NCBI RefSeq assembly: GCF_020382885.2
Contig: NC_058497.1
Location: forward strand, 23,552,330 to 23,616,329
Direction of reading: 5' to 3'
From: Scatophagus argus
Taxonomy: Eukaryota; Chordata; Actinopteri; Scatophagidae
DNA: 64,000 nt
A program made the translations under genes and the position numbers. Every line of letters starts with the position of its first letter. The first letter of the stretch is position 1. Shown piece after piece: positions 10,681 through 64,000 of the stretch. The notes beneath the pieces were generated by a model that saw only the letters and a list, made by a program, of their open reading frames with translations, was not told the origin of the DNA and did no database searches.

Positions 10681-13600
10681 ATGGACAACAGCGGGAAAGA
10701 AAAGGAAGCGATGGCTTTAATAGCTGAGGCTGAAAAGAAAATGAAGTCATCGCAGTCGTTTTTTGGAGCGCTGTTTGGGTGAGTATGTCAGTTAGCGCTA
10801 GCTACTGTTTAGCTAATTTTGTCAAGCTAAAGGCCAACTAAGCGGAAGGTGGCTAGCCGACCACTTACCACCAGATTCAGGAGGCAGGACAAAAAACAGT
10901 TTAGTTTCACCGCTGCAACACTGGGCTGCTTTGTATCGTACGTAGTTGTGGTCGATGATATGCGAGAGTGTCAGCGCTGTGGATTTTATGTGGCGTGCTG
11001 TGATACCTGCTGAACACCTATCTGAGAACAATTAAAGGTGAAGTAGAGATGTATGCAAAAACGAGGGTCATTTACACAACGCTGATTGTATCTTTGAGAG
11101 GACGGCTTTACCATATCAGGTACTGATGAGGTTTTAATCAAAGATCAGTCAAGTAGCATTTCAAGGGATTCTTTCTTTATCTACGGCTATTGTGCTGCTA
11201 TAGCGCCAGCTACTGGGGACATTTCGCATGGCCACTCAATCGTTAGGCGCTGTCACATGTCCATCACATTTGTTTACAAGAGCAGGATGAAACGGATTTG
11301 TGAGTTTTGTCAGATTTAGTGAGATATTAAGTTTTGAAATCAGCTGAAATGATTCAGTTGGGTTTTTATTGGACTCAGAGGTTTGCAGGCATGTGCACAC
11401 TGAGTATGACAGTAACAGCTGTATTTTTGAAATCTCTTGAATGTACTTCTGTTCCGGTGATCAGCATCACTGCAAAGCGCCCGTGTTTGCCAAAAGGATC
11501 ATTTGTGACTGTCTTCAGTTTGTCCAGAAGCACGCAATGTGTAAATTACGAAAAGTTTACGCCGGACTGTAAAGCTTGAAGCTACAAGCGTCCATGTGAT
11601 TGTGTCTTGGCCATTATCATGGTGTTAGTAAAACTATTTATCTGATATCAATGTACTGAGAATAATAATGCTGTTGAATGTAGCATCCTGTATGTAATAA
11701 TCAGATTGATGATCAGCGTATTAAAGTGTATTTCAGACAGAACCTGTCGAGCTGAGTGAACAGCGAATGCCTCTCAGTCGTTCTGCAGGCCCACAATATC
11801 CTTTACATGATCATATCAGGCTGATGATGCAAAAGTATTATAGCACTTTGTTTGTTAACGTCACCCAGTAATGTGTATGAATCTTGTTTAACTAAACGTG
11901 TGCTGTTGCGCAGGGGTTCCTCCAAGATGGAAGAGGCCTGCGACATGTATGTGAGGGCTGCAAACATGTACAAGATGGCCAAAAACTGGAGCGGTAAGAG
12001 TAAATGTTACATGATGAATGAACAAGGGTTAATGATCGCCTTTTTCCTTGTTTAGGTCAGACTTCAGTCCTCCTAACCTAACGCGAAACATTTTCTTTTC
12101 AGCTGCGGGAAATGCGTTCACCCAAGCTGCTCGTCTTCACCTTCAGATGCAGAGCAAACACGATGCTGCAACTAACTTCATAGATGCAGGAAACGCCTTC
12201 AAAAAAGCAGATCCACAAGGTAATGATTACTCATCACCACTCTTGAGCTACGTGAGTGCTGAAGTTCACCCGTAATGCTTGTTTTACAAACTGCTGTGCA
12301 TTATTCAGGTCTCTGTCTACTGTGCGTTTAGCAAATGGGAATGTGGACCGAATGCTTTGCACCTGAGAGAAATATAAATAAATAAATGACATCAAGCTCA
12401 GTCGTGTGGTCGACATGTCTTAGTCATATTGTTAAACTGACTCTGTGCATGAAACCTGCACTTTACCTGACTCTAATTTTGTTTGCTCTTCCTTGGTTCT
12501 TATATAAATGCACATTCTCTTTGTTTCAACAGAGGCCATAAACTGCCTAAACCGAGCTATTGAGATATACACCGACATGGTGAGTCTGTGAGCAGGGAAC
12601 TCTTCTTCGAAAAGTCTGTTTGTAATGTTGAGCATCAGATTTACTTTACTTACTTTACGTAACGTGACACGCCTCCTGCTGATCCCTCCGCTCATGTGTT
12701 TTCTGGTTTCAGGGGCGCTTCACCATCGCAGCCAAACATCACATTAGCATTGCGGAAATATATGAGACAGAGCTGGTGGACATTGACAAGGTGAAATATC
12801 ATTTTACATGTGACTTCTATTCTTGCTTCTAATTTAATTGTGTGTATTGTTTTGAACTGTGAAGTAATCTTGTCTGGATTGTGAGTGTGGGGAAGCTCTG
12901 CTTTCAGCTTATATCCAATTTCCATTCCAGGCCATTGCACATTATGAGCAGGCAGGGGATTATTACAAAGGTGAAGAATCCACCAGGTGACTATTTTATG
13001 TTTTACAGACTCATATTTTCCATTTTTTTCCTTCAAGTTTGTTTCTAATTATTTTTTTATTTCATGATTGTGCAGTTCAGTTACTGTGTGGCCTTTGACC
13101 CTTGATTTCTGTGACTGAGAAGTTTCCCCTTATGCCTTTCAGTTCAGCCAACAAGTGCCTTCTGAAAGTAGCAACCTACGCCGCTCAGCTGGAGCAGTAC
13201 CCAAAAGCGATTGAGATCTATGAACAGGTGCGATCATGCTCACCAGCAGTCTTTGTCTCAACATGTTATCAGTTGCTTCAGGTATGGGCTTAAATTAGTC
13301 TCAGACCCGGCTCACGTAGAATCCAGGTGCATGCGTTCGGCACGAGCACACCGAACGGTATCGTACCGTATTTTTATTTCTGATCTCTGTGCCGTACACT
13401 CAGCACTCATCGATCATCTGTGCAAGGTGATGTTTGCTTTCCTACCGTGAAATAATTATTGCTTTACATAGAGCAAATGGAATCTATACCTTTAAACAAT
13501 ATTAAAATGGGGTCTGTGAAACCACCTTCAAAGTGCCTGAAGTTGACTTGATGAGTGAGTGAGTTGGGCAGTTGGGAGGCCGTGGGGAGATTCATGGTCA

Positions 13601-16228: not shown

Positions 16229-17321
16229 GTAAGTATTTGTACAAAACATAAATGCTGATTTTTCTTCTTTGCGGTTTGTCGACCTCCAGGTGAAAAGTCT
16301 CACCTGCTAGCGGGTGTGTGTTTGTTCGTAAGGTCTCGACGGGTTTATGAAAATTTCATCGACTGTTTAAATGTATTCAATATTTAAAGGGAACCCATCA
16401 AAACGTGTTGGACGTATTTGAAGGACTTGTAAGATGGCAAGATAAGGAACGAGTTTCTTGTTTTTGTCAGGACAAATCAATAGGTGTCAGGTGTTATCTT
16501 AATTTCTGTTTAATCAGGGAGGCCCTCGGGACTTTGCTCCACTGTTATTTGTACAAAGCCTGTTTGCCCCTAATTAAACACTTGAGACAAGGGTGTGTTG
16601 AGCTGCATCCCAATGGAGAACCACTGCAGGCTATAAAGAAACACAGTCGGACCGCATTGTGAGGTTTTTTATTTTTGTGTTTTATTTAAATACATCAGTA
16701 GAGGTACGTTTTGAGCCGTTGGAGTATGTAACAACACTGAGAGCAGATCAAAAAGTACAATTGCGATGTTCTGTTGTTCAAAATGTGTCTCCATTTTTTT
16801 TTCCCTCGTGGATTTGAACGTAAAAGCTCTAGTTCACCTCACTCTCCTTACGTGCAGTATTTCAAGAGGAAAAACGCAAACTTTATTGAGTTTTAGAGTG
16901 AATATGAGCAAGCACAGCCGTAAATAATTAAACAAAAAAAATCAAGAAATCTTACAAACTCGTGAGGTCAGCGGTGAGTTTAGAGTTTTCTCCCAGCAAG
17001 ACGTGCTGGCTTTGAGGTTTGCCAACATAACAAGGAAATCTGAATTCCCAATTTTCATTAAATATTAATTTCAGCTAGTTGTTCATTTCCCTTGAGTTTC
17101 AAGGCTGTAAAGTCTGTGATGTGTTCACTTACATTAAGGTTTCCTGTAACCTGTTTTTTTTCCCTCCTCCTGTTGGTAGGTACATCCATCTTGTCACCTG
17201 CTGGCTGAGTCTGTGTAACCTGAGAACAAATACACACCAGGTCCCAGTACCATCACCCCTGAAATATAATCTGTCTCTGGGAACAACACAACACACAGCT
17301 TGGTTTACTTACTCCGAGCCA

Positions 17322-18602
17322 ATGAGACGTATTCAAACTTTCTGTGCTATGGTTCTCCTGGTTACTTTATTTCTGATCTTCTTCTACTCAACCCTGAACC
17401 TGGAGACGACCTACAGCCACAAGACGGTAACGGTGGACCCCCTGAGGCATCCCGGCCTCCAGGTCCATGACGGTGACGTGGAGCCACAGACCTCCAAGAA
17501 GGAGAGCGTCACCACGCCTCGTCCTGCTGACCACAGCGTGTCTGTCTCTGACGGCCTCAAACAGACCATCGTTCAGAATGGAGCCTACTGGAACCGTCTG
17601 CTGTACTCGGCCCTCAGGAGCCTGGACAAGGGAGGAAACGCTTTCAGACTTGACTCTGATTGGTCTCGGTGCAGGGAGGCAAATCAAGAGCTTCTACTGA
17701 CCAACGTGCACGACTTCACCTCCTACCCGGTCTTGTTCCAGGACTTTTTGCAGGGTATGAACTGCAGGTCCCCACCACTCCTGATCAACCAACCCGACAA
17801 GTGCTTCTCCGGGAAAGGGAAGGGAGGCAACCAGACCTTTGTGCTTTTTGCTATCAAGTCTACTCCTGGAAACTTTGAGCGCAGACAGGCGGTGCGGGAG
17901 ACCTGGGGGCGAGAGGGGCCGTATCAGGGTGGACTGAGAGTACACACAGTGTTTCTCCTGGGTCGCTCTCCGCCGGATGACCCTGACCTCAGCCAGCTGC
18001 TGTCATTCGAAGCGAGACACTTCGGGGACCTCCTGCAGTGGGACTTCCACGAATCCTTCTTGAACCTGACGCTCAAAATGAACACGTTCCTCCAGTGGAC
18101 GCTGAAATACTGTCCTCATGTCTCCTTTGTTTTCAGCGGAGATGATGATGTATTTGTTAACTCGCTGGCACTGTTCAGCTACCTGCAGTCTCTGGAGCCC
18201 TCGAAAGCCTCTCAGTTGTATGTTGGACATATCATAAGCACAGCGAATCCTCTCAGGGACCCTAATAGCAAATACTACATTCCTCTGAGTTTCTATGAGA
18301 GTCCTTACCCTGCTTATGCTGGTGGAGGGGGCTTCCTCATCTCTGGAGCGTTGCTGCAGCGCCTATATTCAGTTTCACAGGTCATACCTTTCTTCCCCAT
18401 CGACGACGTCTACATCGGGATGTGTTCGAAGGCTGTGGGAATTTCTCCTGAGGCACACGCGGGCTTCCAGACCTTCGATGTGAAGGAGCAGGATCGTGAG
18501 AATCTGTGCGTACACAAAGATCTTATTCTGATTCACCAGCGCTCCCCAGCGCAGATAAAGAAGCTGTGGAAGGGCATTCACAGCCCCTTGTTGACTTGCT
18601 GA
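17322..18602 (+). CDS. Beta-1,3-N-acetylglucosaminyltransferase, B3GNT2/B3GNT8 type
   Basis: This is a Golgi type II membrane enzyme of glycosyltransferase family 31 that adds GlcNAc in beta-1,3 linkage to galactose, extending poly-N-acetyllactosamine chains. The coding part lies in one exon, as usual for this family: 426 residues, against about 397 in the human relatives. A short cytosolic tail (MRRIQ) is followed by a hydrophobic anchor at residues 6-24 and a variable stem. The catalytic domain has ERRQAVRETWG (about 186-196), the metal-binding DDD in FVFSGDDDVFVN (about 271-282), YPAYAGGGGFLISG, and the IDDVYIGMC block. The start is the first in-frame Met after the acceptor at 17179; there is none between them. 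INQPDKC and the DDD block look more like B3GNT2. Position next to BCKDHA matches B3GNT8, so orthology by synteny is likely but the paralogue name is left open. Confidence 0.92.
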   Translation: MRRIQTFCAMVLLVTLFLIFFYSTLNLETTYSHKTVTVDPLRHPGLQVHDGDVEPQTSKKESVTTPRPADHSVSVSDGLKQTIVQNGAYWNRLLYSALRSLDKGGNAFRLDSDWSRCREANQELLLTNVHDFTSYPVLFQDFLQGMNCRSPPLLINQPDKCFSGKGKGGNQTFVLFAIKSTPGNFERRQAVRETWGREGPYQGGLRVHTVFLLGRSPPDDPDLSQLLSFEARHFGDLLQWDFHESFLNLTLKMNTFLQWTLKYCPHVSFVFSGDDDVFVNSLALFSYLQSLEPSKASQLYVGHIISTANPLRDPNSKYYIPLSFYESPYPAYAGGGGFLISGALLQRLYSVSQVIPFFPIDDVYIGMCSKAVGISPEAHAGFQTFDVKEQDRENLCVHKDLILIHQRSPAQIKKLWKGIHSPLLTC

Positions 18603-19518: not shown

Positions 19519-24155
<4,637 letters not shown>

Positions 24156-25715: not shown

Positions 25716-28700
25716 TTAACAGTTTTTCTGTAGAAAAATCTGCATGTCCGCCTGATCCGAGAGAATGCGAGACCTCTCTTGGCTGACCGTGTCTCCCGCT
25801 GTGGAAAACGCTCTCTCGTGAGGAGTAGACGACGCCTGGATACACAGGTACGAGTTGGAGAGTTTAAACAGGAGGGGCAGCGCGTCTCGTCTCTCCCACC
25901 ACCAGGCCAGAGCGTCCTCTGATGTGGGCACCGCCGGGAGGTTTCTGTACAGCTGCATTTCTTGCTGGACTCTTTCAGGTACTGACGTCGTGTTCTCTGT
26001 GGCTGTGATGCTCTTCAGGGCTTTGTCCTCCGCCTCGAAAAGCTCTTCCAGGGCGGATAACTTCTGCCGTTTGGCAAACAGAGTCTGACAAATGGGAGTA
26101 AAGCAAAACCAAAAACAAAAAGTTCAACAAGACAACCTGGATTGTATATGATAAATGTTTTGTGTAACAGGGATGGCTTTACCTCATCTGAATACTCTTC
26201 ATCATTTTGCTCAGATGCATCATCAGCATCACTGTCCTCATCCAAAGGTTTGGGTTCCTTCTGATTCGACACCTGAAGATTATATTTAAGGAAAGGAAAG
26301 GAAAGGAAAGTGACATATTTTGTCATTGGAGGGAACTCACTCCAACGAAATTTGTTCTCTGCATTTAACCCACCCAAGTGACGTGCACACACACACAGCA
26401 AACCCGGGGCAGTGGGCGACCGCGTGCAGCGCCCGGGGAGCAGTGGGGGGGTTAGGTACCTTGCTCAAGGGTACCTCAGCCATCACAATATATTGACACT
26501 GATGAGTCCAAAAACTGACAAAAGGGCAGCACGTCAGAAAAATCAGAATCAGAATCAGAATTCCTTTATTTATCCCCGAAGGGAAATTCTTTAAAAAAAA
26601 TTAACTATAACTATAAGAGTGTGTGGGACGGCAGATGGCATGAAGGGATCAAACATGTGAGTGCAGACAAGATTACAGCATGCAGCAGCAGAACCGCAAA
26701 ACAAAAGAGAATACTGTACCTTGGCCGTGGTGGTAACCCTCACCGCAGCATTTTGCACTCTCTGCCAAATCTCATCTGAGTCAACTCTGTTCTTGAACCT
26801 TGGATCCATGGCGCTCGACTCCTGCAGGAACTTCCAAGTATCACCATCCTGAAACAAAGCATACACACTGTGGTTCTGCTCTGAAAACAAGACTAGGATC
26901 ACACTTAGGATCCAGCCTAAACTGAAACTGACTTTGACCGCAACATCTTTCATCTGGTGGACAAAACAATAGAGATACCTTGCAGTACTATGGATTAACC
27001 ACAAGATGTCGCCATTTGACAAAGGCCTGGAAACAATGAACCGTTTTCAACACAAGCACCTGCGAAAGACTCAGGGCTTCAGAAAGCTTTGTTATTCAGC
27101 TGACAGAAATTAAATCTGCAACTATTTTGAGTCAATTAATCATTTAGATGATTTTTCAAGCCACAATACCATCCATTCTTGTCTTTTATCAGTGACAACT
27201 TGCTGCTTTTCTTTGTCTCATATATTAAACATGGAGAGTAAATATAATGAAATCTAGTGACACCATCTTGGGCTTTAGCAAACTATATTTTTCACTATAT
27301 TTTTCAGTGTTGACCACTAAACAGTAAACTGCGAAAACAGTCGGCTGATTAATCCACAATGAAAGTAATTGTTAGTTGCTGCAATGAATAAAATGTCTAA
27401 AAACACACACTAAGCTTACAGCAGACTTTATCAGGTAAATAACTTAGTTTTCATATTGAATTTGCTGGGCAGTGGAAGGTTTTGTACATACCTTGTAGTA
27501 CGTCGACAGGTCACCCCAGATTTTTCCCTTCAGTGTGGTTGTGAACAGAGTGTCGTCATCCTGCGCCTCAAAGTGGGCCTCCAGTTTTTTCAGGATGGGA
27601 AATATCTGACTACACGTTGGACTCTTGTCAGCTGAGACACACAGCGAAGACGTGTACACAGGCTTCATAACTCTGACGAACTCTTCTGCTTTCCGGTGAT
27701 CGTCGTCTGTGAGCGTTTCCAGCCTTCGGAGTAAATTTATGCGAATCAATGAACAGATCATTTCTATGCAATTAACGAATATTACATCCTGTTATCTTTC
27801 ATTACCTTCTCTTCTCAACCGACTGCTTGATCTGTGGATCTGTGCAGGTGGCCTGGATGGCAGCGTACTGCTCTACAAACCTCTCCACCATGAGGTACAG
27901 CGAGGTCCAGCGGGTTTGGACATCAAGCACTAAAGACTGTCGACGTAGATCTGAAACACAGACGTTCAGCCTCTCACATTCAGTAAATCCTCTCACTGAC
28001 ACACTCCATGTTCTATTGAAACAGCCCAAAAGAAAGTCTGGAAGAGATCGTGTACTCACTCAGAAGCTGTTGTTTCTCCTGAAGCACCTTTTTAGCTGTG
28101 GAAGACCTTTTGATCCACACAACAACAGCTCTTATTTTCGATGCCCATCTGGCCACAGTGCTGCTGGTGTACACACTCTGTGCAGCAACATTAAGAACTT
28201 GTGCGAAACACCTCAGCTTCCTAAATTGCACTTTCCTGATGGTGATGTCCATACTGAATGTATCAGCCACCGTCACGGCAACAACTTTGTCTCTGACGCC
28301 AAACTCCTCCAGTACGCTACCTAACTGCTCCGACACGACCGCGTCGGTCTGAGCGTCGTGAACCGGCTTCGTGCGAAGAACCTTCTGCTGCATGTGGCCT
28401 TTCATTATGAAGTGTAAAGTGACCGTGAGGTAACGGTCGTGGGCCAAACTCGTCCAGCAGTCACATGTCAGTGCAGCCTCAGACACCTGGAGCAGCTGTC
28501 TGATGATGTGTTTCTTCTCCACAGAGTACCATGAAGGGATGAGCGCGTTTGTGAGCTCGTCTCTGGAAGGCAGCTGGTACTTTGGGTTCAGCGTTTTTGT
28601 CATCTCTCTGAGAGTGAAAGCAGAAATGAAAATGAAAAACAGCAGATGTAAATAATCACATTTGTGTATCCAACATCCAGGTTAACAAAACACACCTAAA

Positions 28701-31684
28701 CCACGGCGACTCTAACGTGGACGAGGGATGCAGTCCCTTCACAAGATATCTGGTGACAGCCCTGTGACACTCCTCTGTCCTTTGTTTGCTCAGCCTCTTC
28801 CTGGCAGCCGGTGTGAAGGAGGCTGTGACAGCAGACACCACAGCTTCTTTCACGTTACTGTCGGTTGCAACACAGGGAGAACCTCCTGTAGGACGGGGAA
28901 AAAATGACCCACCAGTCTGAACTGATATATAACGATACCTAACACTCGCTTTACTTACTGCATGACCACAAGCAATGATTATTTTCATTACTGAGAAACT
29001 TGTTCAGTCTGAAAAAAGGTCATTTTTTTATTCTATCCAAGCAACAGCCTAAAATGCCAAAATATTCTCTAAAATGTCAACTAGTTCGCTACAAGTCTCT
29101 GATTTACACTTACGAGCAACCAGGCTGCTGGTGATTATCTCCATGCACACCGAACCCCAGACTTCCTCTGCATTTACTTCTCCAGTGAAGGACTCCGGCA
29201 GGCCCTGGATCTCAATCCCTGCACAATATGTACGAGAATTACTGATACTGCTTTTAAATAACAAATACTTTGTTTTTGTGATTTGTGATATTTAACTCCA
29301 GGTGCATGTACCGATGCAGATACCAAAATATACTCACCTGCCATGTTGAAAATCCCCTTCTGATAAAGATCCATCATGATGACAGATGGGCGGTCGTGAT
29401 TCGTAAGAGCCTCAAAGTGGAGGTAAGCCTGAAGCACTTCCATGCCACAGGGAGACCTGTCACCTACCGTCCGTTCCAGCACCTCCACCACTGCACCATC
29501 AGCAGTGTGATTCTAACAAAATGGGAAGCAGACGGAGATTAGCATTTTTAGCCAATCATCTAAGTAAACTGAAAATAAATAAATAAAACAATTTCTACTT
29601 TCTTGAAATACAGGAACCTTGACTGAGTCTCGCAGAAGCAAGCAAAGCTGCAGACTTAGGATTATGTGGTTGTTGTAATTGTGAACACCGCCGCTCCACT
29701 CCTGATAATGGTAGACCAGTTCACAATCTGGACACTTTTTGAAAAATGTGGAATAATCTGGAAAACATAAAAAGATGTCTTAAAGGGTCTGAAAAAATGA
29801 CAACAACAGGAGACCGTGAGGTGTAATACGGGCACATTTGTAGACAAACCTTCCATCACTCCCGTTAAAGTAATGACCCTCGCTTTGTTGGTGATCAGCA
29901 CTGGCTCCGTTAAGGAAACCTGACCTGGGCAGTCTTGGCAGGCGGTTTCAGCTGGAGCCAGATGCTTTGACAAGTGTATTTCAGACTCAGCCTGGGTGAC
30001 GCTCTCTGGAATCGTGGAGGGCAACTTTTTTTGGTTGTAAATGTACTTCGCCATTTGTTTTAGTCCTTCTTCGCCAAGTGGAATCACAGTTCCAGCTGAC
30101 TTTTCTGTGGACGTTTCTGCGGGTGAGTCCTCCATCAGTTCAGCAATTCTGAGTGGTACGTCTCCTTTGGCATCTGAGGAAAACAACTCTTTGTTGGACT
30201 GGAAGAGATACCATTTAGCTATGCTTTTGTGCAGGCAGGAAATTCTCCCTCGTATACAATCGCAGTGCCACAACCTTCCCTTCATATTATATGTCACAAA
30301 TAATCTCCCTGACTTGCTGTACAGTGACCCTTTGGGCTCAAACACAGACAAGTACAGACAATGACTTCCACCAAGATCCACGAGAGAAACGAGCGGCGCT
30401 GAGGTCTGAGCTGCGTGGTCATGATAGTGAAGGCACTTGGCCTTCATGTCCTTGCCGATCAGTTTATTGGCAACCAGTTCCTCCAGCACAGCAGGCTTCA
30501 AGTCTTCCGTGCTTGCATGAGTAAAACAAAAGTCAACTGACCGCAGATGGGGACACTGGCTATCAGGCAAGCCGCTCCTCCTTTGAAAATCTGAAATAAC
30601 CTTGCACCGATCTTCTTCGCAAATCATTTTGTGTGTGTCACCTGACTTCTTTTTAATGACATGAACTGGTACGGCAGTGGCCTTGTAAGACTTTGCTACA
30701 GCGTACACCCCGTTATGAGAATCAACACACTGACTTTTGAGATGGTCTTTGGCCGTTATGTCCTTTTCGGAAATTAAGTGTTTCCTGAGTTTATGTTTCC
30801 TTAGATTTTTTTTATGCAAGTGCAGATTGCACATTGGACATTTGATCTTTCTCCGTACTGTACTGAATATTGGACCTCTTTGCTTCACCGGGTTGTCTGT
30901 TAAAGTACAGAGGTGGACTACTGGTGTTGTTGGCTGGACAGGAGGGTCAGGTGGAACAGCAGGAGGGACAGATGTAGTTGTGAGTTCAATGAGGTGGCAA
31001 GCTGAGGCAGCCTGCTGCTGGTCTGCTGAGGATTCTGGTTTAACGGGGTGGTCAGGTGAAGCACGACGCTGGTCTGCTGTGGGTTTTGGCTGAGCAGGTG
31101 GCTTGGGTGGAGCAGGACCCTGTCCCAATGTGATAATCTGCTGCAAAGGGGGAGTGAGGCTGAGCAGAAGGATGGCAGGCTGGGAGACAGTGGTAGCTGA
31201 CTGAGCAGGAGTCTCAGGTGGAGCAGCAGACTGGCTGCCCTTTGCAGCTGTTGATGAACTTTGCATTTTTACACATTTGTCCATGTGAATTTCAAACTGC
31301 TTCCGAGTTATAATTGTCTTTGCACAATACGGACAATGAAAATGTCGTTCTCCTCTGCATTGCAGCTGACAAGAATGAATATCAAACTCTGCAAGGAGAA
31401 AACAAAACTCATTAAAAGTGGATGTAACGCCACAGGAGAGCAGCTTTGTGCCACTTACTGGATAAATGATCAGTGTGTGTTTCAGGTTCAGGTGGCAGTT
31501 CTGACCTCCGTGCTTTAACGCCCTCATTCTGTGGATTTCTATATGTGTCCAAACACTTGCATAGTCTCCTTTTGGCTTGTAGACGGACGGCTGGCAGAAG
31601 GGACAGTGGTACAGCTTGCACTCTTTGCACACGTCCAGACGCATGCGGCCATCTGAACGCCTGCGCACTGTCACATGCAAGTTC
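25716..31684 (-). CDS. Composite gene: HMGXB3-like zinc/SWIM module joined to a hAT (ZBED1-like) transposase body
   Basis: Twelve minus-strand exons join without a stop: 31684-31506, 31388-29850, 29757-29618, 29512-29338, 29218-29114, 28885-28696, 28607-28060, 27950-27806, 27723-27492, 26848-26720, 26272-26183 and 26084-25716, giving about 1279 residues. The start exon is not identified. Residues about 1-100 hold Cys/His clusters (VCKECKLYHCPFCQP, HFHCPYC...HMDKC). A proline-rich linker follows, then CPMCNLHLHKKNLRKH and a SWIM-type CxC(x6)CxH in WHCDCIRGRISCLHKSIAKW. About 573-712 resembles HMGXB3 (CPDCELVYHYQEWSGGVHN, LQAYLHFEALTNHD). From about 713 on it is hAT-like: YLVKGLHPSSTLESPWF, CDCWTS, VQTRWTSLYLMVERF and the C-terminal dimerisation region (ASSTPHERAFSTAG). 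No BED finger is seen. The CxxH motif reads CFAQ and the usual TDN reads ADT, so transposition activity is doubtful. Likely a nuclear DNA- or chromatin-binding protein, by inference only. Confidence 0.75.
26285..26590. repeat. Two adjacent fish interspersed-repeat fragments in an intron
   Basis: A short (GGAAA)n run is followed by a block with AACGAAATTTGTTCTCTGCA, CGCCCGGGGAGCAGTG and GGTACCTTGCTCAAGGGTAC, a sequence type repeated widely in fish genomes. The following block, with ATCAGAATCAGAATCAG and CCTTTATTTATCCCC, looks like the tail of another dispersed element, perhaps a LINE or SINE. Families are not assigned with certainty. Confidence 0.5.
27115..27383. repeat. Fish ATTAATCG-type element, full-length-looking but diverged
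   Basis: It starts CTGCAACTATTTTGAGTCAA and ends TAATTGTTAGTTGCTGCAAT, so the ends are inverted copies built on GTTAGTTGC/CTGCAACTA. The inside carries short phrases such as GATTAATCCACAATGAAA, typical of this common fish element. It lies in an intron of the hAT-derived gene. Non-coding. Confidence 0.6.
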
Positions 31685-32476: not shown

Positions 32477-32592
32477 ATGGACGCTAACTTCAGTGTCGTT
32501 CTGACAGCTAACGTTAGCTCGCTGGCGGCTGACATCTCGGTTAGCTTGGACCATCTGTCTCGTACCATCACCACTGCTGAGGACCGTGAGGT
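32477..32592 (+). CDS. Orphan 5' coding-like exon, 38 residues then a splice donor
   Basis: An ATG at 32477 in CpG-rich DNA opens a frame starting MDANFSVVLTANVSSLAADI. It reaches GAG/GTACAA, a possible donor, about 115 bases on; without splicing the frame runs to 32731. I recognise no family and found no matching downstream exon before EXOSC5 starts. It may be the first exon of an unrecognised gene, an alternative 5' exon, or chance. The bases GCTAACGTTAGC inside are a common fish palindrome, which weakens the coding case. Confidence 0.2.
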
Positions 32593-33119
32593 ACAACCAC
32601 AACCGAGAAGTGTTAATCGTGTATTTGGAGTACATCTCGGTGTAACTCCTCTCACCCTTCAACACGCCCAGAAAGCGGCTCTCGCGCCCCCGTCGTCTCA
32701 CCACACGCCCCGCACGCCTGCGCCATCTTGACTGGGCGTCATTGAAGTTGTGCGGTACGTGTTGCAGTTTCTGCAGCCCTGAGATCCGCCTGCCAGGCAA
32801 CTCCTCCTTCCAGATCCCCCCTCCAACTCCCATATTTAAAACTTTATTAATAACACATTGATTTTACAATGCAAGTAACCACAGTCCATAATTTATAAGG
32901 AAATAAAATAAAATAACCCCACTAAAAACACCAGCAGAAATTTAAAAATGCACAATACAGAAATTAAAAACGGCTTCAAACATTGCAAACCACCTCGAAT
33001 CACTTGTAAAACTATGACCCACACGATGATTATATTTAAAAGAGAGTTTGTCGTCAACAAGTTTTCAATAAGTTCAATAAGGTTAAAATTAAACCAATTT
33101 GCCGCCTCTTTTATGTCAT

Positions 33120-33197
33120 CAGTAAGGGCCCCAAATGGCAAAACAGATTACGTCACTCGCCCGCGACCAACTGATCTTCCAGCGCGAGAGCAGCACG
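33120..33197 (+). promoter_or_regulatory. EXOSC5 promoter-proximal region
   Basis: The bases before the EXOSC5 start codon change from AT-rich to CpG-containing (CACTCGCCCGCGACC) at about 33150. Inference: transcription start and short leader. No TATA box is seen at the expected distance. Confidence 0.35.
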
Positions 33198-35500
33198 ATG
33201 GAAGTGTGCGGCTCCTCAAATGTTTCTCTGAGAGAGTTTGGTAGTGAACTGAGCCTGCTGTCTCGACCTGACGGTTCAGCGTCCTTCATCCAAGGTAACA
33301 ACGCCGGATCCGGAACCGGCTGCGAAAGGCAGATTGTAGAGCCGCACTGTAACGTCGGGCAGAGCTCCTAGCACAGAAGTCAGCCGAGATGTTGGATGGT
33401 GTATACTTACGTTTAAAGCAGAGGTTCTGAATACCGAAAATTCCTCTTCTGCCGTTGCGTTCAAACACTGTTAATAGTTGGTTTAAACTATATTATGGTT
33501 TTATTTTTGTTGGCGTCTAGCTGGTGGGTGTGTACAGAGTAAAACCACAATAGTAATGAGATTCACAGTAGTAGCGATGTGACATTTCCACCCTCCAAAC
33601 ACCCACCAGATCAGCTGGTCACTTAATCTGTTTTCATTGTTTTTGATTGTTCTGTAGTCGCCAACAACCGAGATATTCCATCTGCAGTGGATCACAAACC
33701 ATAATGTCCCCATCTGGATCCATAATGTATCCTCTGTTGAATAATGTCTTCTTTTGTTCTCATGTGAAAGGAGACACAAGTGTGTTGGCTGGAGTGTATG
33801 GACCAGCCGAGGTCAAAGTCAGCAAGGAAATCTACGACCGGGCAACACTGGAGGTGCTGGTACAGCCCAAAGTGGGACTGCCAAGTCAGTGGTTGTCTGT
33901 TGTTGTCTCATCAGTCCTCAGCATTGTCTGATTTGTACCTGAGGGTTTTTTTAATTGCAGCACAGGCAGGAAAAGACATTTTGTTTAATTTTCATTTAAT
34001 GTATTTGTGCAGACGTGAAATATTTAATGTTTGTATATTTGACACAGAACGGGCTGTATACTGTAGTCACAATGCAGTGCTGATATTTGGAGATATAAAA
34101 TATACATAAAAGGGAAGTTTACCTAAAAATCTTGAGGGGAAAATGAGGAGTATGAAGGAGGAATGAATTTGGCGAGTTTTTGGACTCTTAACTGCTTGTG
34201 CAGACTAAAAGCTGCTGTACCACAACACACCTCAAGGTGGAACAAGTGAGGCAGCTGGAATCAAGCGCGTGTCCCATCGTGTGTTTATTTTCCAGGTGTA
34301 CGGGAGAGATCACAAGAGCAGTGTGTGCGAGAGACCTGTGAGGCGTCTCTGCTCTTGTCACTCCATCCTCGCTCGTCCCTCACTCTCATCCTTCAGGTGT
34401 TACACGACGATGGCTCGGTATCCTTCGGTAAAACTGTCCCGTGGCGTTGTGCCGTGAGGTCTGCTGTTAATAGGACACTGAAGTGGTGTTTCTTGGCGTG
34501 TGTTCTTCCTTACCCGTTGTTCAGCTCTTGTCCTGCTTTTTGAATGCTGCCTGCATGGCTCTTATGGACGCAGGCCTGCCGATGAGCTGTCTGTTCTGTG
34601 GGGTGACCTGCGCCATCGACACTGACGGTCAGATCATCACAGACCCCACTGCAGCTCAGGAGAAGGTAAACCTGAGACTTGTGTCCAACACCCCAAAAAA
34701 AGCACTTTTGAGGCTGACTACATCAGGTGTCGTCTGTTAAAGTCCTCATGGGACACAATAAGTCACACGTAGAAACATGTTAAAGGGTCAGCTACCAGTT
34801 TCCTGACAGGACTGACTGGCTTTGGATTTGTAGAAAATTGCACTGAAATAAAGTCAAATGATGCAGAAGATTCAAGGGAAAAAGTCCCAACACTGACAAC
34901 CAAAATTTCACATTTTAATGCGTCATAACAGAATAAGTGAACTAAAGTGAACATCAGAGATTGATGGTTGACTTTACTTTTTACCAAAAGTCTGTTGCAC
35001 ACCAGCAGGCTGTTCGCATGTCCTTGCAGTCCACTCGGCACCGACGTGACCCTCACTGAACTTGTTCCCGTCTGATTCTGTACTCACCAGGAAAGTCGAG
35101 CTTTGATGACCTTTGCTATCGACAGTACCGAACGCAGAGTAATGATGTCATCAACCAAAGGATCATTTTCAGTTCACGAGGTCAGTAAATAAATGAGCCA
35201 GTGTTTTTGTTTTCCACACACACCGCAGCATTGTTAAACGCGGGTTGGACGTGGAATAGAGCTGCGTTCAGCTCTGTCAGTGATCTGCTTCAGGGCTGAT
35301 GATGATGATGATGATGATGCACGGCGTTCTTCAGGTTCTGTGTGTGGCCATGCTGCAGACGTTTCATGTTTTCAGGCTGAGTTTCTGCTTTTGTTCTTGT
35401 GCAGCTGCAGCAGTGTATCGCAGTCAGTCAGAAAGCATCAGAGAAGATCTTCCACTTCTACAGAGACTCTGTCAGGCGGCGATACTCCAAAACGCTCTGA
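33198..35500 (+). CDS. exosc5: EXOSC5 (RRP46), RNA exosome ring subunit
   Basis: EXOSC5 is one of six RNase PH-fold subunits that form the catalytically inactive barrel of the RNA exosome, which degrades and trims RNA 3'-to-5' in nucleus and cytoplasm. Six phase-compatible exons: 33198-33294, 33771-33884, 34296-34417, 34525-34665, 35091-35180 and 35405-35500, giving 219 residues (human 235). Strong matches to human: [55 protein letters not shown] and [13 protein letters not shown]. The final exon codes [19 protein letters not shown] then [12 protein letters not shown]. The protein is shorter than human only at its N-terminus, which reads [19 protein letters not shown]. It keeps the same neighbours as in human (BCKDHA and TMEM91), apart from the transposon-derived gene upstream. 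Confidence 0.95.
35298..35319. repeat. (GAT)n microsatellite in the last EXOSC5 intron
   Basis: About seven perfect GAT units, some 85 bases before the acceptor of the last EXOSC5 exon. Confidence 0.85.
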
Positions 35501-37602: not shown

Positions 37603-42008
<4,406 letters not shown>

Positions 42009-61208: not shown

Positions 61209-64000
61209 TTAGCAGAGAGATTTCGGTCGAACCTTCGGGAAAAGCTGCAAAGAACAAAACAAGGCGTTGACATTCGTGTTTTACTTAAGAGGCCAAATTG
61301 TTCAACATGTCATTAAGGTCTCTCACCCCAAAGTAGTTGTTTGGAACGAAGCCCTCCCGGCCGCAGAGCGAGGCCCACCACCAGTCCGACCCTTCAGGTT
61401 TCTGCAGGATGGTGATCATGTCTCCCTCCCTGAAGCTCAGCTCGTCGGCTGCCTGAGCCGGGTAGCTCCACAGGGCGTAGAGCACCCCGCTGTTCTCCAC
61501 CCCCATGGCCTCCTCCACACCTGAGATTACACAAAAAGCAGGGCACATAAGCATTGATGCAAGTGATTAAATATCAAAGATGTAAGAATTCTTTTTTCGC
61601 TTTTGCTTTATTCTGAAATCCTGTAATCTGTATCCTGTTATTACAGCATTGTCTTACATAAACAGCCTGCTGATGCATACCAATGAATACATGCAAAGTT
61701 TTAGTGTGTTTTAAAGGCTTTTCCGGCTTTCCAAAAATGAAGATTTGGTATTAAATGGTCATATTTTATATCAAATATCAAATATTTTCACAAATTCCCA
61801 TATTGTTTAAAGAGCTCCCCCACAAAGAGAAAGACAGCAGGATCCCTTTCTGTTCCTGTTAGCTTACTTTGAGAATATTGTTGAGAATATTAGCATTAGT
61901 TAGTGTTGGCTTAGCTACATTATGTGTTAGTGCTTGAATGACTGACGGGAGACTAATCTCAAACACATCACGTGTGACCATTTAACCAACCGTCAAATGC
62001 AAACTGTCATTTTATGATTCATCTTCTGTTAGCATTTAACAGCGCTCTGTCACAGGGTGTGTATTTGTGTGTGTGTATGTGTGTGTGTGTGTAGGTGTAA
62101 TTGCCTCACCCCTCAGGAAGCTCTCACACTCTTCAAACCCAGGAGCATAAGGATCACACTTCTGGGAGGCGATAGCGCCGTCGCTCTGCGTCATGGCCAT
62201 GACAGCAGCTCCGTTCCTCACCAGAAACTCACACAGAGGACGGTCATTGCAAGAGGCTGCACAATGCAGCGGAGTCCTGTGGACCAAACAGCTGCCGCTT
62301 AAAAACAAAACTCTTTCAAAAACATCACATCGAGACACATAAAGCTTCACCTCTCAGCTCGTAAACTTAACATGCTGCCTTTTACACAAAACCGAAAGAC
62401 GATGAGCGATAATATTGGAGAAAGGAATAAGAGAATAATCACCAGCCGTGGCTGTCTGGTGCGCTGACATTGGCTCCAATGCGAACCAGGAAATCCACCA
62501 CATTGTAATGGCCCCCGCAGATGGCATTGTGAAGAGCAGTGATGCCCTCATCGTTGGGCTGGCTGGGGTCGTTCATCTGCAGGAAACATTTTACACAGCG
62601 GATTCATCAGCTACACTGCAATCGTTATTATCATTATTATAACAAGAACCTCTGCATGAGTATATCCTCACACTGTTACATTTCAAGAAAACGTGATCTT
62701 TCATGAAAACTGCATTATCTATTGTTACTGGCTTTATGAGCCTTTTCCTGAGTGGAAGCAGAAGCTGTTGCAGTGGATGAGACTTCCCAGCAAACGTATT
62801 TCAGTGTGAAGAAGATGCAGGGATGTACTGAATAAGTGAAAGCAAACCCCCAGAGAGAACAAAAGTTAAATACAACACGTATTCAGTGCTTCTCAAAGTC
62901 AGCGTCCGCAAGTGCAGCACCAACTTTACTGTCTTTGTTCAGGCTGGTTCGAATGAGTTTTTATTCTGTGAAACGTATTGACGGAGGCTGCTGAGATGAG
63001 CTAAAAGGACTTTGTAATGTTAAAAAGGAGGAATTACCAACTGTAAATATGAGCGCAATCAAAATGACAAATGCAAATTTAATTCATTCATTAATGTCAA
63101 AACATTCTCTTTTATTTAACTATACTTGTACTCTTTCTTTCCAAACTTCTTCTTGGATCAGTTTCACACTTTTTGTCTACATGATTTTCCTTCCTTTACT
63201 GAATTTAATCTTAATTTTTACTAAAACATATATTAGAGATAGAGGTTTAGAATTTTAGGAGTAAGTGAAGTTGTAGTAGTAGTGGTAGTACTGTAGTATA
63301 CAGTCAGGTGCACACACACCTCCTGGACGGCCCTCTGCACCGTCTCCAGCTCACCGACCAACGATCCATCCAGCAGCAGGACGAGCGGGCTGAGCCGAGC
63401 TCGCCTCCCCGAACTTTTGCGTTCCCGGCTGGACCGCCGCAGAATCGAATGGTAGCTCTGGAGGGACAAAAAGGATGCAAGCTTGTATGAAGTAAAGCAC
63501 TTGACTGCAGACAGCGTTGACCAGCACAGATAACCGTCGACATATCATGCACTGAAGTGTAATGTCCCTTTACACAGCACTGAATGCAAAGTAAAACATT
63601 TCATGTATAAATACCATCATTATTTAATGCTCTTTTGATTTACTGCACGACTCATCTGTGGTGTAACACAGCACACTCCTAATGCCTTTTTTCCACTTGT
63701 TTCAGTTGCTCTAAGATCGTTTCTTACTCTGAAGTCAAGGGGAACCATTGAGGATGTCTGAGGTATGGGGGCAGGAGGCATAGCGCAGTCCTCTCCGTCT
63801 GAAGAGCTGCTGGTCTCGCTACCTTGATCCCCCTTCTGGCGATGCTCCTTCCTGCGGAAAAGCTTGTCAATGAGGTTTCTGTACTGGTTCGGCTGGTAGT
63901 GGGAGGCCTTCTTCAGGGGCCGCGACTGGTCCACGGAGCCCCGTCTCTTCAGGGCGCGGGGAATTTCTGCCCGGATGCGGAGCAGCTCCTCCACGCTAGG
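61209..64000 (-). CDS. ppp1r13l: PPP1R13L (iASPP), C-terminal exons; gene enters from the right window edge
   Basis: iASPP is the inhibitory member of the ASPP family. It binds p53, p63, RelA and protein phosphatase 1 through its C-terminal ankyrin-SH3 unit and dampens p53-driven apoptosis. Minus-strand exons in view: 64000-63728 (5' limit unknown), 63457-63320, 62576-62443, 62276-62110, 61520-61327 and 61244-61209 (stop). The first holds basic and serine-rich sequence ([22 protein letters not shown]). [40 protein letters not shown] and [14 protein letters not shown] form the ankyrin repeats. [20 protein letters not shown] and [20 protein letters not shown] form the SH3 domain, with ALWDY-like and WWWA motifs intact. 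The end [11 protein letters not shown] aligns with human [25 protein letters not shown] favours PPP1R13L over ASPP1/2. Confidence 0.93.

Follow-up and report, generated by a model that had tools for sequence, protein, structure and literature searches.

Between bckdha and exosc5 in the genome of Scatophagus argus, exons encoding a cysteine-rich zinc protein are followed, on the same strand, by exons of a hAT transposase. The question raised by this locus is whether the two sets form one host gene or two adjacent ones and, if they form one, how the transposase body came to carry a foreign zinc module in the place of its own BED finger. Within our window, the whole stretch of 64,000 nucleotides that was analysed (C5:23552330-23616329 in own-genome coordinates), a single host gene seems to us the probable answer, in which a CxC4-type zinc protein has had its exons spliced onto those of a BED-less, intron-bearing hAT transposase. 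The best reading of its sequence is that the hAT body has been domesticated and its BED finger exchanged for the CxC4 module. That this is one gene and not two is probable, and we infer the single transcript, the DNA binding, the dimerisation, the selection and the order of events.

A thirteen-exon frame between bckdha and exosc5

Our hand-built model places 13 exons on the minus strand of the bckdha-exosc5 interval, which together encode one frame of 1303 residues closing with a TAA at 25718-25716. All 12 introns are GT-AG, the phases agree and there are no internal stops, so that at the sequence level non-transposase exons stand in frame with transposase exons. The twelve exons of the original prediction, for which agreeing phases and the absence of stops had been claimed, are recovered as exons 2-13 (31684 to 25716), with the same 29114/28885 junction. 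The start exon (32726-32656) is additional to them; it lies beyond the interval considered earlier and completes the frame. Past the stop codon, AATAAA/ATTAAA poly(A) signals occur from 25439 on. The parts of the model are as follows:

32656-32726, minus strand: exon 1, residues 1-24, ATG at 32726-32724; its donor (AGG/GTGAGA) fits exon 2 in phase, and a reverse frame is higher in codon use
31506-31684, minus strand: exon 2, residues 24-84, with CKEC and CPFC motifs; codon use does not favour the predicted frame
29850-31388, minus strand: exon 3, residues 84-597, with C2H2-like motifs, a Pro-rich linker, the SWIM-like CDCIRGRISCLH (459-470) and the start of CxC4; the predicted frame tops all six in codon use
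29618-29757, minus strand: exon 4, residues 597-643, the middle of CxC4; PF18717 at 28.1 bits in the whole-genome search, above the cut-off
29338-29512, minus strand: exon 5, residues 644-702, the end of CxC4 (661) and the segment following it (hand-built model and Pfam)
29114-29218, minus strand: exon 6, residues 702-737, the final exon of the N-terminal half; donor CTC/GTAAGT
28886-29113, minus strand: intron 6, the join of both halves, with one AATAAA (29032), no BED remnant and a low forward codon-use score
28696-28885, minus strand: exon 7, residues 737-800, the first hAT exon
28060-28607, minus strand: exon 8, residues 800-983, the RNase H-like core, which retains the first Asp (TCDCWTS) and has Ala in the second Asp column and CFAQ for CxxH (alignments with Hermes and own-genome hAT loci)
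27806-27950, minus strand: exon 9, residues 983-1031, with a TRWTS motif; both junctions are common to the C7 copy
27492-27723, minus strand: exon 10, residues 1031-1108; 59% identity to the C7 copy over 61 residues
26720-26848, minus strand: exon 11, residues 1109-1151; short matches to the C7 copy (34 columns) and the C14 copy (29 columns)
26183-26272, minus strand: exon 12, residues 1152-1181, an acidic linker (hand-built model)
25716-26084, minus strand: exon 13, residues 1182-1303 and stop, the hAT dimerisation region, catalytic Glu kept (HERAFSTAG; PF05699 and Hermes)

Intron 11 (26273-26719) includes GATTCTGATTCTGATT together with a C/G-rich block, which looks by eye like the tail of a fish retroposon.

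The neighbourhood was characterized by similarity searches with open frames, six of the eight tested as neighbours having matched Pfam:

19525-24155, minus strand: bckdha (PDB match, E 1.5e-55; E1_dh, E 6.4e-24), last exon within 19525-19896
33198-33928, plus strand: the 5' part of exosc5 (RRP46 match of a 41-residue piece, E 6.7e-16; start codon read from the sequence)
17079-18599: galactosyltransferase match in Pfam
12036-12272: SNAP match in Pfam
37606-37824: CD225 match in Pfam
61288-62353: SH3/ankyrin matches in Pfam

These matches uphold the original placement of the gene between bckdha and exosc5/RRP46, the former encoded on the minus and the latter on the plus strand. The first exon of bckdha is probably 24155-24042, which by eye encodes an N-terminus of mitochondrial type, and the open frame 33647-33928, a part of exosc5, had no Pfam match at E<=0.001. 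From gene order we take the CD225 match to be TMEM91-like, and the names of the neighbouring genes are likewise our assumption. The fusion gene and exosc5 lie head-to-head, with 472 bp from ATG to ATG, and the CpG observed/expected ratio is 1.04 at 32500-32749, 0.61 at 32750-32999 and 0.98-1.08 at 33000-33499, so a promoter shared by the two genes (32500-33500) is possible. Human EXOSC5 and BCKDHA are presumably head-to-head as well; if so, the fusion gene came to sit between the two, on the side facing exosc5.

Codon use, scored with a training set of four neighbouring open frames, backs the 13-exon model only in part, and modestly. Among the three forward frames, the predicted one ranks first in 12 of the 13 exons (the exception being exon 2), a reverse frame outscores it in six (exons 1, 2, 4, 6, 7 and 12), and its score rises above zero only in exons 6, 9 and 10. 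The preference for a reverse frame in exons 6 and 7, the two exons that meet at the junction, speaks against a single gene. The locus might instead comprise two neighbouring genes, one for a CxC4 protein whose exon 6 is extended, the other hAT-derived, without BED and beginning in intron 6. Read-through from exon 6 would reach a stop at 29049 with an AATAAA at 29032, as would suit a terminal exon, and the frame of exon 7 extends upstream without a stop as far as 29003 and includes an ATG. However, an AATAAA arises in 13.4% of 5000 shuffles of intron 6, the exon 6 donor scores 5/7 (with 2 of 12 donors higher) and the exon 7 acceptor 14/16 (joint best of 12), the phases fit, and codon use within intron 6 is low in all three forward frames (-0.48 to -0.90), lower than in the predicted frame of every exon. 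We consider two separate genes unlikely.

The CxC4-bearing N-terminal half

In the single gene that we prefer, the N-terminal half is identified by a CxC4 domain (PF18717) at residues 559-661, with a Pfam E-value of 1.5e-11 and a match that crosses both the exon 3/4 and the exon 4/5 junctions. Profile searches of the protein, which had been put forward as a check, thus matched CxC4 as well as the hAT dimerisation region (E 9.3e-13). Matches to CxC5 (E 0.038) and zf-Di19 (E 0.00038) stayed under the Pfam cut-offs. This half also holds seven CxxC and four C2H2-like motifs, and a PDB search with it gave just weak zinc-finger matches (best E 0.34). A structure prediction for a 231-residue part of exon 3, made without an alignment, reached a pLDDT of 37 and was set aside.

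The SWIM motif named in the original prediction fared less well. Its letters are present, as the CxCxnCxH pattern CDCIRGRISCLH at residues 459-470, but 107 of 2000 shuffles of this Cys/His-rich half also contain such a motif, and no SWIM domain was matched in Pfam by the whole protein (E<=1) or by its six pieces (E<=10). The SWIM assignment is statistically weak. HMGXB3 carries a CxC4-type cluster, and this cluster is what it has in common with the fusion protein. The proposed likeness of the module to HMGXB3 keeps the CxC4 family match as its one basis and, in contrast with HMGXB3, the fusion protein had no HMG box among its Pfam matches at E<=1 (whole protein).

Our whole-genome searches covered the species' own assembly (570,666,677 bp, 48 contigs) and proceeded exon by exon. 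With the N-terminal half as query, all six rows recovered were its own six exons, and CxC4 alone returned exon 4 only (one match among seven candidates at E<=0.001), a result to be read with the limited sensitivity of exon-by-exon searching in mind, since the gene's own CxC4 scores just 28 bits. By the same searches the fusion is single copy in this genome. No homologue spanning the exon 6/7 junction was found in the sequence searches, nor were relatives of the protein pieces found in viral or bacterial/archaeal contigs. A KDZ transposase domain was likewise absent from the Pfam matches of the whole protein (E<=1) and of its six pieces (E<=10). Because the N-terminal half is single copy here, and its assignment to transposons rests on the CxC4 family name, its origin from a transposon is uncertain. 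Of the claim that one frame joins two transposon-derived genes, the open, spliced CxC4-hAT frame is retained, and the transposon origin holds for the hAT half only.

The hAT body, its relatives and the probable exchange of its finger

The original prediction of a hAT transposase body with a C-terminal dimerisation region is supported, as Dimer_Tnp_hAT (PF05699) is matched at residues 1231-1302 (E 9.3e-13) and the Hermes transposase matches this half in two stretches (E 1.5e-13). In the Hermes alignment, a one-residue shift puts an Asp opposite the second catalytic Asp, which had suggested an intact DDE triad. That candidate was dropped, as alignment with 15 hAT loci of the same genome, several of them near-duplicates of each other, gives Ala in the second Asp column, where 14 loci have a letter and Asp is found in 11 of them, the other three likewise lacking it. 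The His of CxxH is Gln in the gene and His in 11 of 13 loci, and the first catalytic Asp and the Glu are retained. The hAT body is likely, not certainly, catalytically dead, the shifted Asp of the Hermes alignment and the three loci without Asp leaving some doubt. At one of the other loci, L013 (C4:4902974-4903972), a hAT-derived frame combines a pair of BED-like patterns with altered catalytic columns, Asn for Asp and Thr for His, and is possibly a domesticated zbed gene.

The hAT half as query recovered 83 rows in the own genome, seven of them the gene itself. Its closest relative is a broken copy on C7, with 46-59% identity in four rows; over the core, the C7 copy has 46% identity and the next loci 35% or less. 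The introns of the C7 copy at residues 983 and 1031 are in the same two places as in the gene, and its aligned blocks contain four in-frame stops. A second copy, at C5:18.04 Mb, is 48% identical to the gene in the C-terminal part only and, because it is 90% identical to the C7 copy over 383 bp, we regard the two as copies of one family. For a third, on C14 (43%), the matches are short and fall in exons 7, 11 and 13, none having been found in the core. It is a less certain relative, because other loci reach 45-51% over 61-67 residues of the C-terminal region, where C14 scores 70.5 bits and another hAT locus, L010, 68.6. Exon 7 has a short similarity to a broken copy at L036 (22 residues, E 0.007), and at L008 query positions 34-565 are covered by one intronless frame. 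A tree of the C-terminal region (17 rows, 13 of them different, 92 columns) was poorly resolved, with one of ten inner branches well supported. Right after the hAT stop of the C7 copy lies a 63-bp palindrome (L033:9411-9473, 95% self-complementary).

BED fingers were found upstream of the hAT part in the copies at C5:18.04 Mb (E 3.1e-11, a stop being read as X) and on C14 (E 4e-9), and a BED-like pattern occurs in the longest open frame of 7 of 17 hAT loci. In the fusion gene PF02892 was matched neither by the whole protein (E<=1) nor by its six pieces (E<=10), and tblastn found no remnant of a BED finger. The presence of BED in two broken relatives and its absence from the gene provide within-genome evidence for a module swap. 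The originally proposed replacement of one DNA-binding module by another gains support from two of the three broken relatives, but not from the C7 copy, in which a BED finger was sought and not found. The BED-bearing broken copies are frameshifted, and the phase of an intron from the BED exon to the next exon could not be fixed in them.

Both the C7 and the C5:18.04 Mb copy lie beside a dispersed repeat, at least about 100 bp long, to which 37 of the 41 rows from a genome search belong and of which 30 sequences were aligned:

L033:7223-7324, L035:6820-6913 and L045-L072 (own-genome search): copies of the dispersed repeat

Many of these copies start with TAGGGCTGGGTACCGAA, whereas those beside the C7 and C5:18.04 Mb copies differ in the first bases; the first bases are of a kind that we take to be typical of hAT ends. 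The repeat is probably a hAT end and may represent a short non-autonomous hAT family. Only the C7 and C5:18.04 Mb rows also matched the transposase part of the query beside it.

Around the gene there are no convincing terminal inverted repeats (TIR) with target site duplications (TSD). A scan around the hAT part alone gave zero pairs at three settings, and a scan around the whole gene, also run at three settings, gave a single weak pair in two of them, with 10 of 14 TIR bases matching, counts that three of six and one of six shuffles reached. Inverted-repeat pairs near the gene numbered 153, of which none of the 25 longest stood out by eye, and a pattern search for one hAT-type terminus returned nothing. 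The weak pair, together with the hAT body and the location of a multi-kilobase unit between two cellular genes, is what a mobile composite transposon, namely a hAT element that acquired the CxC4 module, would lead one to expect. Such an element is very improbable, since the N-terminal half is single copy in the genome search, the second catalytic Asp column is changed and the window lacks the repeat that lies beside the related copies (no match when as many as 3 mismatches were allowed, against 0.26 expected by chance).

The history that we consider most likely for the host gene runs as follows. A hAT copy of some age, its body split by introns and its BED finger encoded by an exon upstream of them, would have come to sit downstream of the CxC4 gene, between bckdha and exosc5. 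Splicing would then have linked the donor of exon 6 with the acceptor of the exon immediately after the BED exon, and this BED exon, along with the two ends of the transposon, would have been lost afterwards. The resulting protein is predicted to be a sequence-specific DNA or chromatin binder in which the N-terminal zinc clusters would take over the targeting role of BED and the hAT body would supply dimer formation, not DNA cutting. A more specific version, in which a KDZ-type zinc targeting module has replaced the finger on a dead, dimerising hAT body, giving a regulator that derives entirely from two unrelated transposon superfamilies, with a promoter region facing exosc5, is tentative, and we are more inclined to doubt it than to adopt it.

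Persistence of the frame and comparison with known fusions

The changed catalytic column and the modest codon-use scores would also be compatible with a pseudogene, or a frame open by luck, in which either half is out of use and decay is yet to come. However, when neutral change was simulated at 0.02 substitutions per site, the whole frame stayed open in 4.7% of 1000 runs, at 0.05 no run kept it open, and the three relatives examined (C7, C5:18.04 Mb and C14) all have stops, frameshifts or deletions. Moreover, the synonymous divergence between the gene and the C7 copy is saturated (pS 0.79 over 359 codons, in aligned blocks picked by hand), although part of this divergence may predate domestication. 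Because dS is saturated, dN/dS against C7 is uninformative. We regard decay yet to come as quite improbable, and a domesticated gene as the better account of the open frame.

A literature search based on listings, which is not proof of absence, found no published description of a CxC4-hAT fusion, and none is described in the available parts of PMC12062965, PMC3606216, PMC8097297, PMC10027918, PMC7325037 and PMC5753468. Related systems are described there. Host-transposase fusion genes include KRABINER, SETMAR and CSB-PGBD3 (Cosby et al. 2021, cited in PMC12062965) and, in the relevant passages of PMC12062965, tend to pair the DNA-binding part of a transposon with a host regulatory domain. As in these genes, exons of another gene stand here in frame with transposase exons, and the product is a predicted DNA binder. 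In contrast with them, the transposase contributes its body and dimerisation region, its own finger is missing, the partner is CxC4, and the fusion is known from sequence alone. The zebrafish F-box::CxC7 fusions (PMC12062965) are, as far as that account extends, also a case in fish of a KDZ-type cysteine cluster and another domain spliced into one polypeptide, with CxC7 and an F-box there and CxC4 and a hAT body here.

The ZBED proteins, which are domesticated hAT transposases (PMC3606216), have the hAT-derived body and the C-terminal dimerisation region in common with the fusion protein, which differs from them by the lack of a BED finger. BED has also been lost in C7ORF29, a truncated protein for which the corresponding passages of PMC3606216 mention no replacing module. 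The CGGBP proteins (PMC8097297) are domesticated hAT DNA-binding regions defined by BED and Hermes DNA-binding domains; they are an independent hAT domestication, fish included, whereas the gene described here lacks BED and retains the body. The fusion gene appears to be a further case of animals making DNA-binding proteins from mobile DNA. The presence of BED-bearing broken relatives in the same genome renders the exchange testable, and the exchange, if confirmed, suggests that a hAT body can be useful to a host, through dimerisation, without its finger. What seems to have happened at this locus is the reverse of the usual fusion, with the transposase body retained and its finger replaced.
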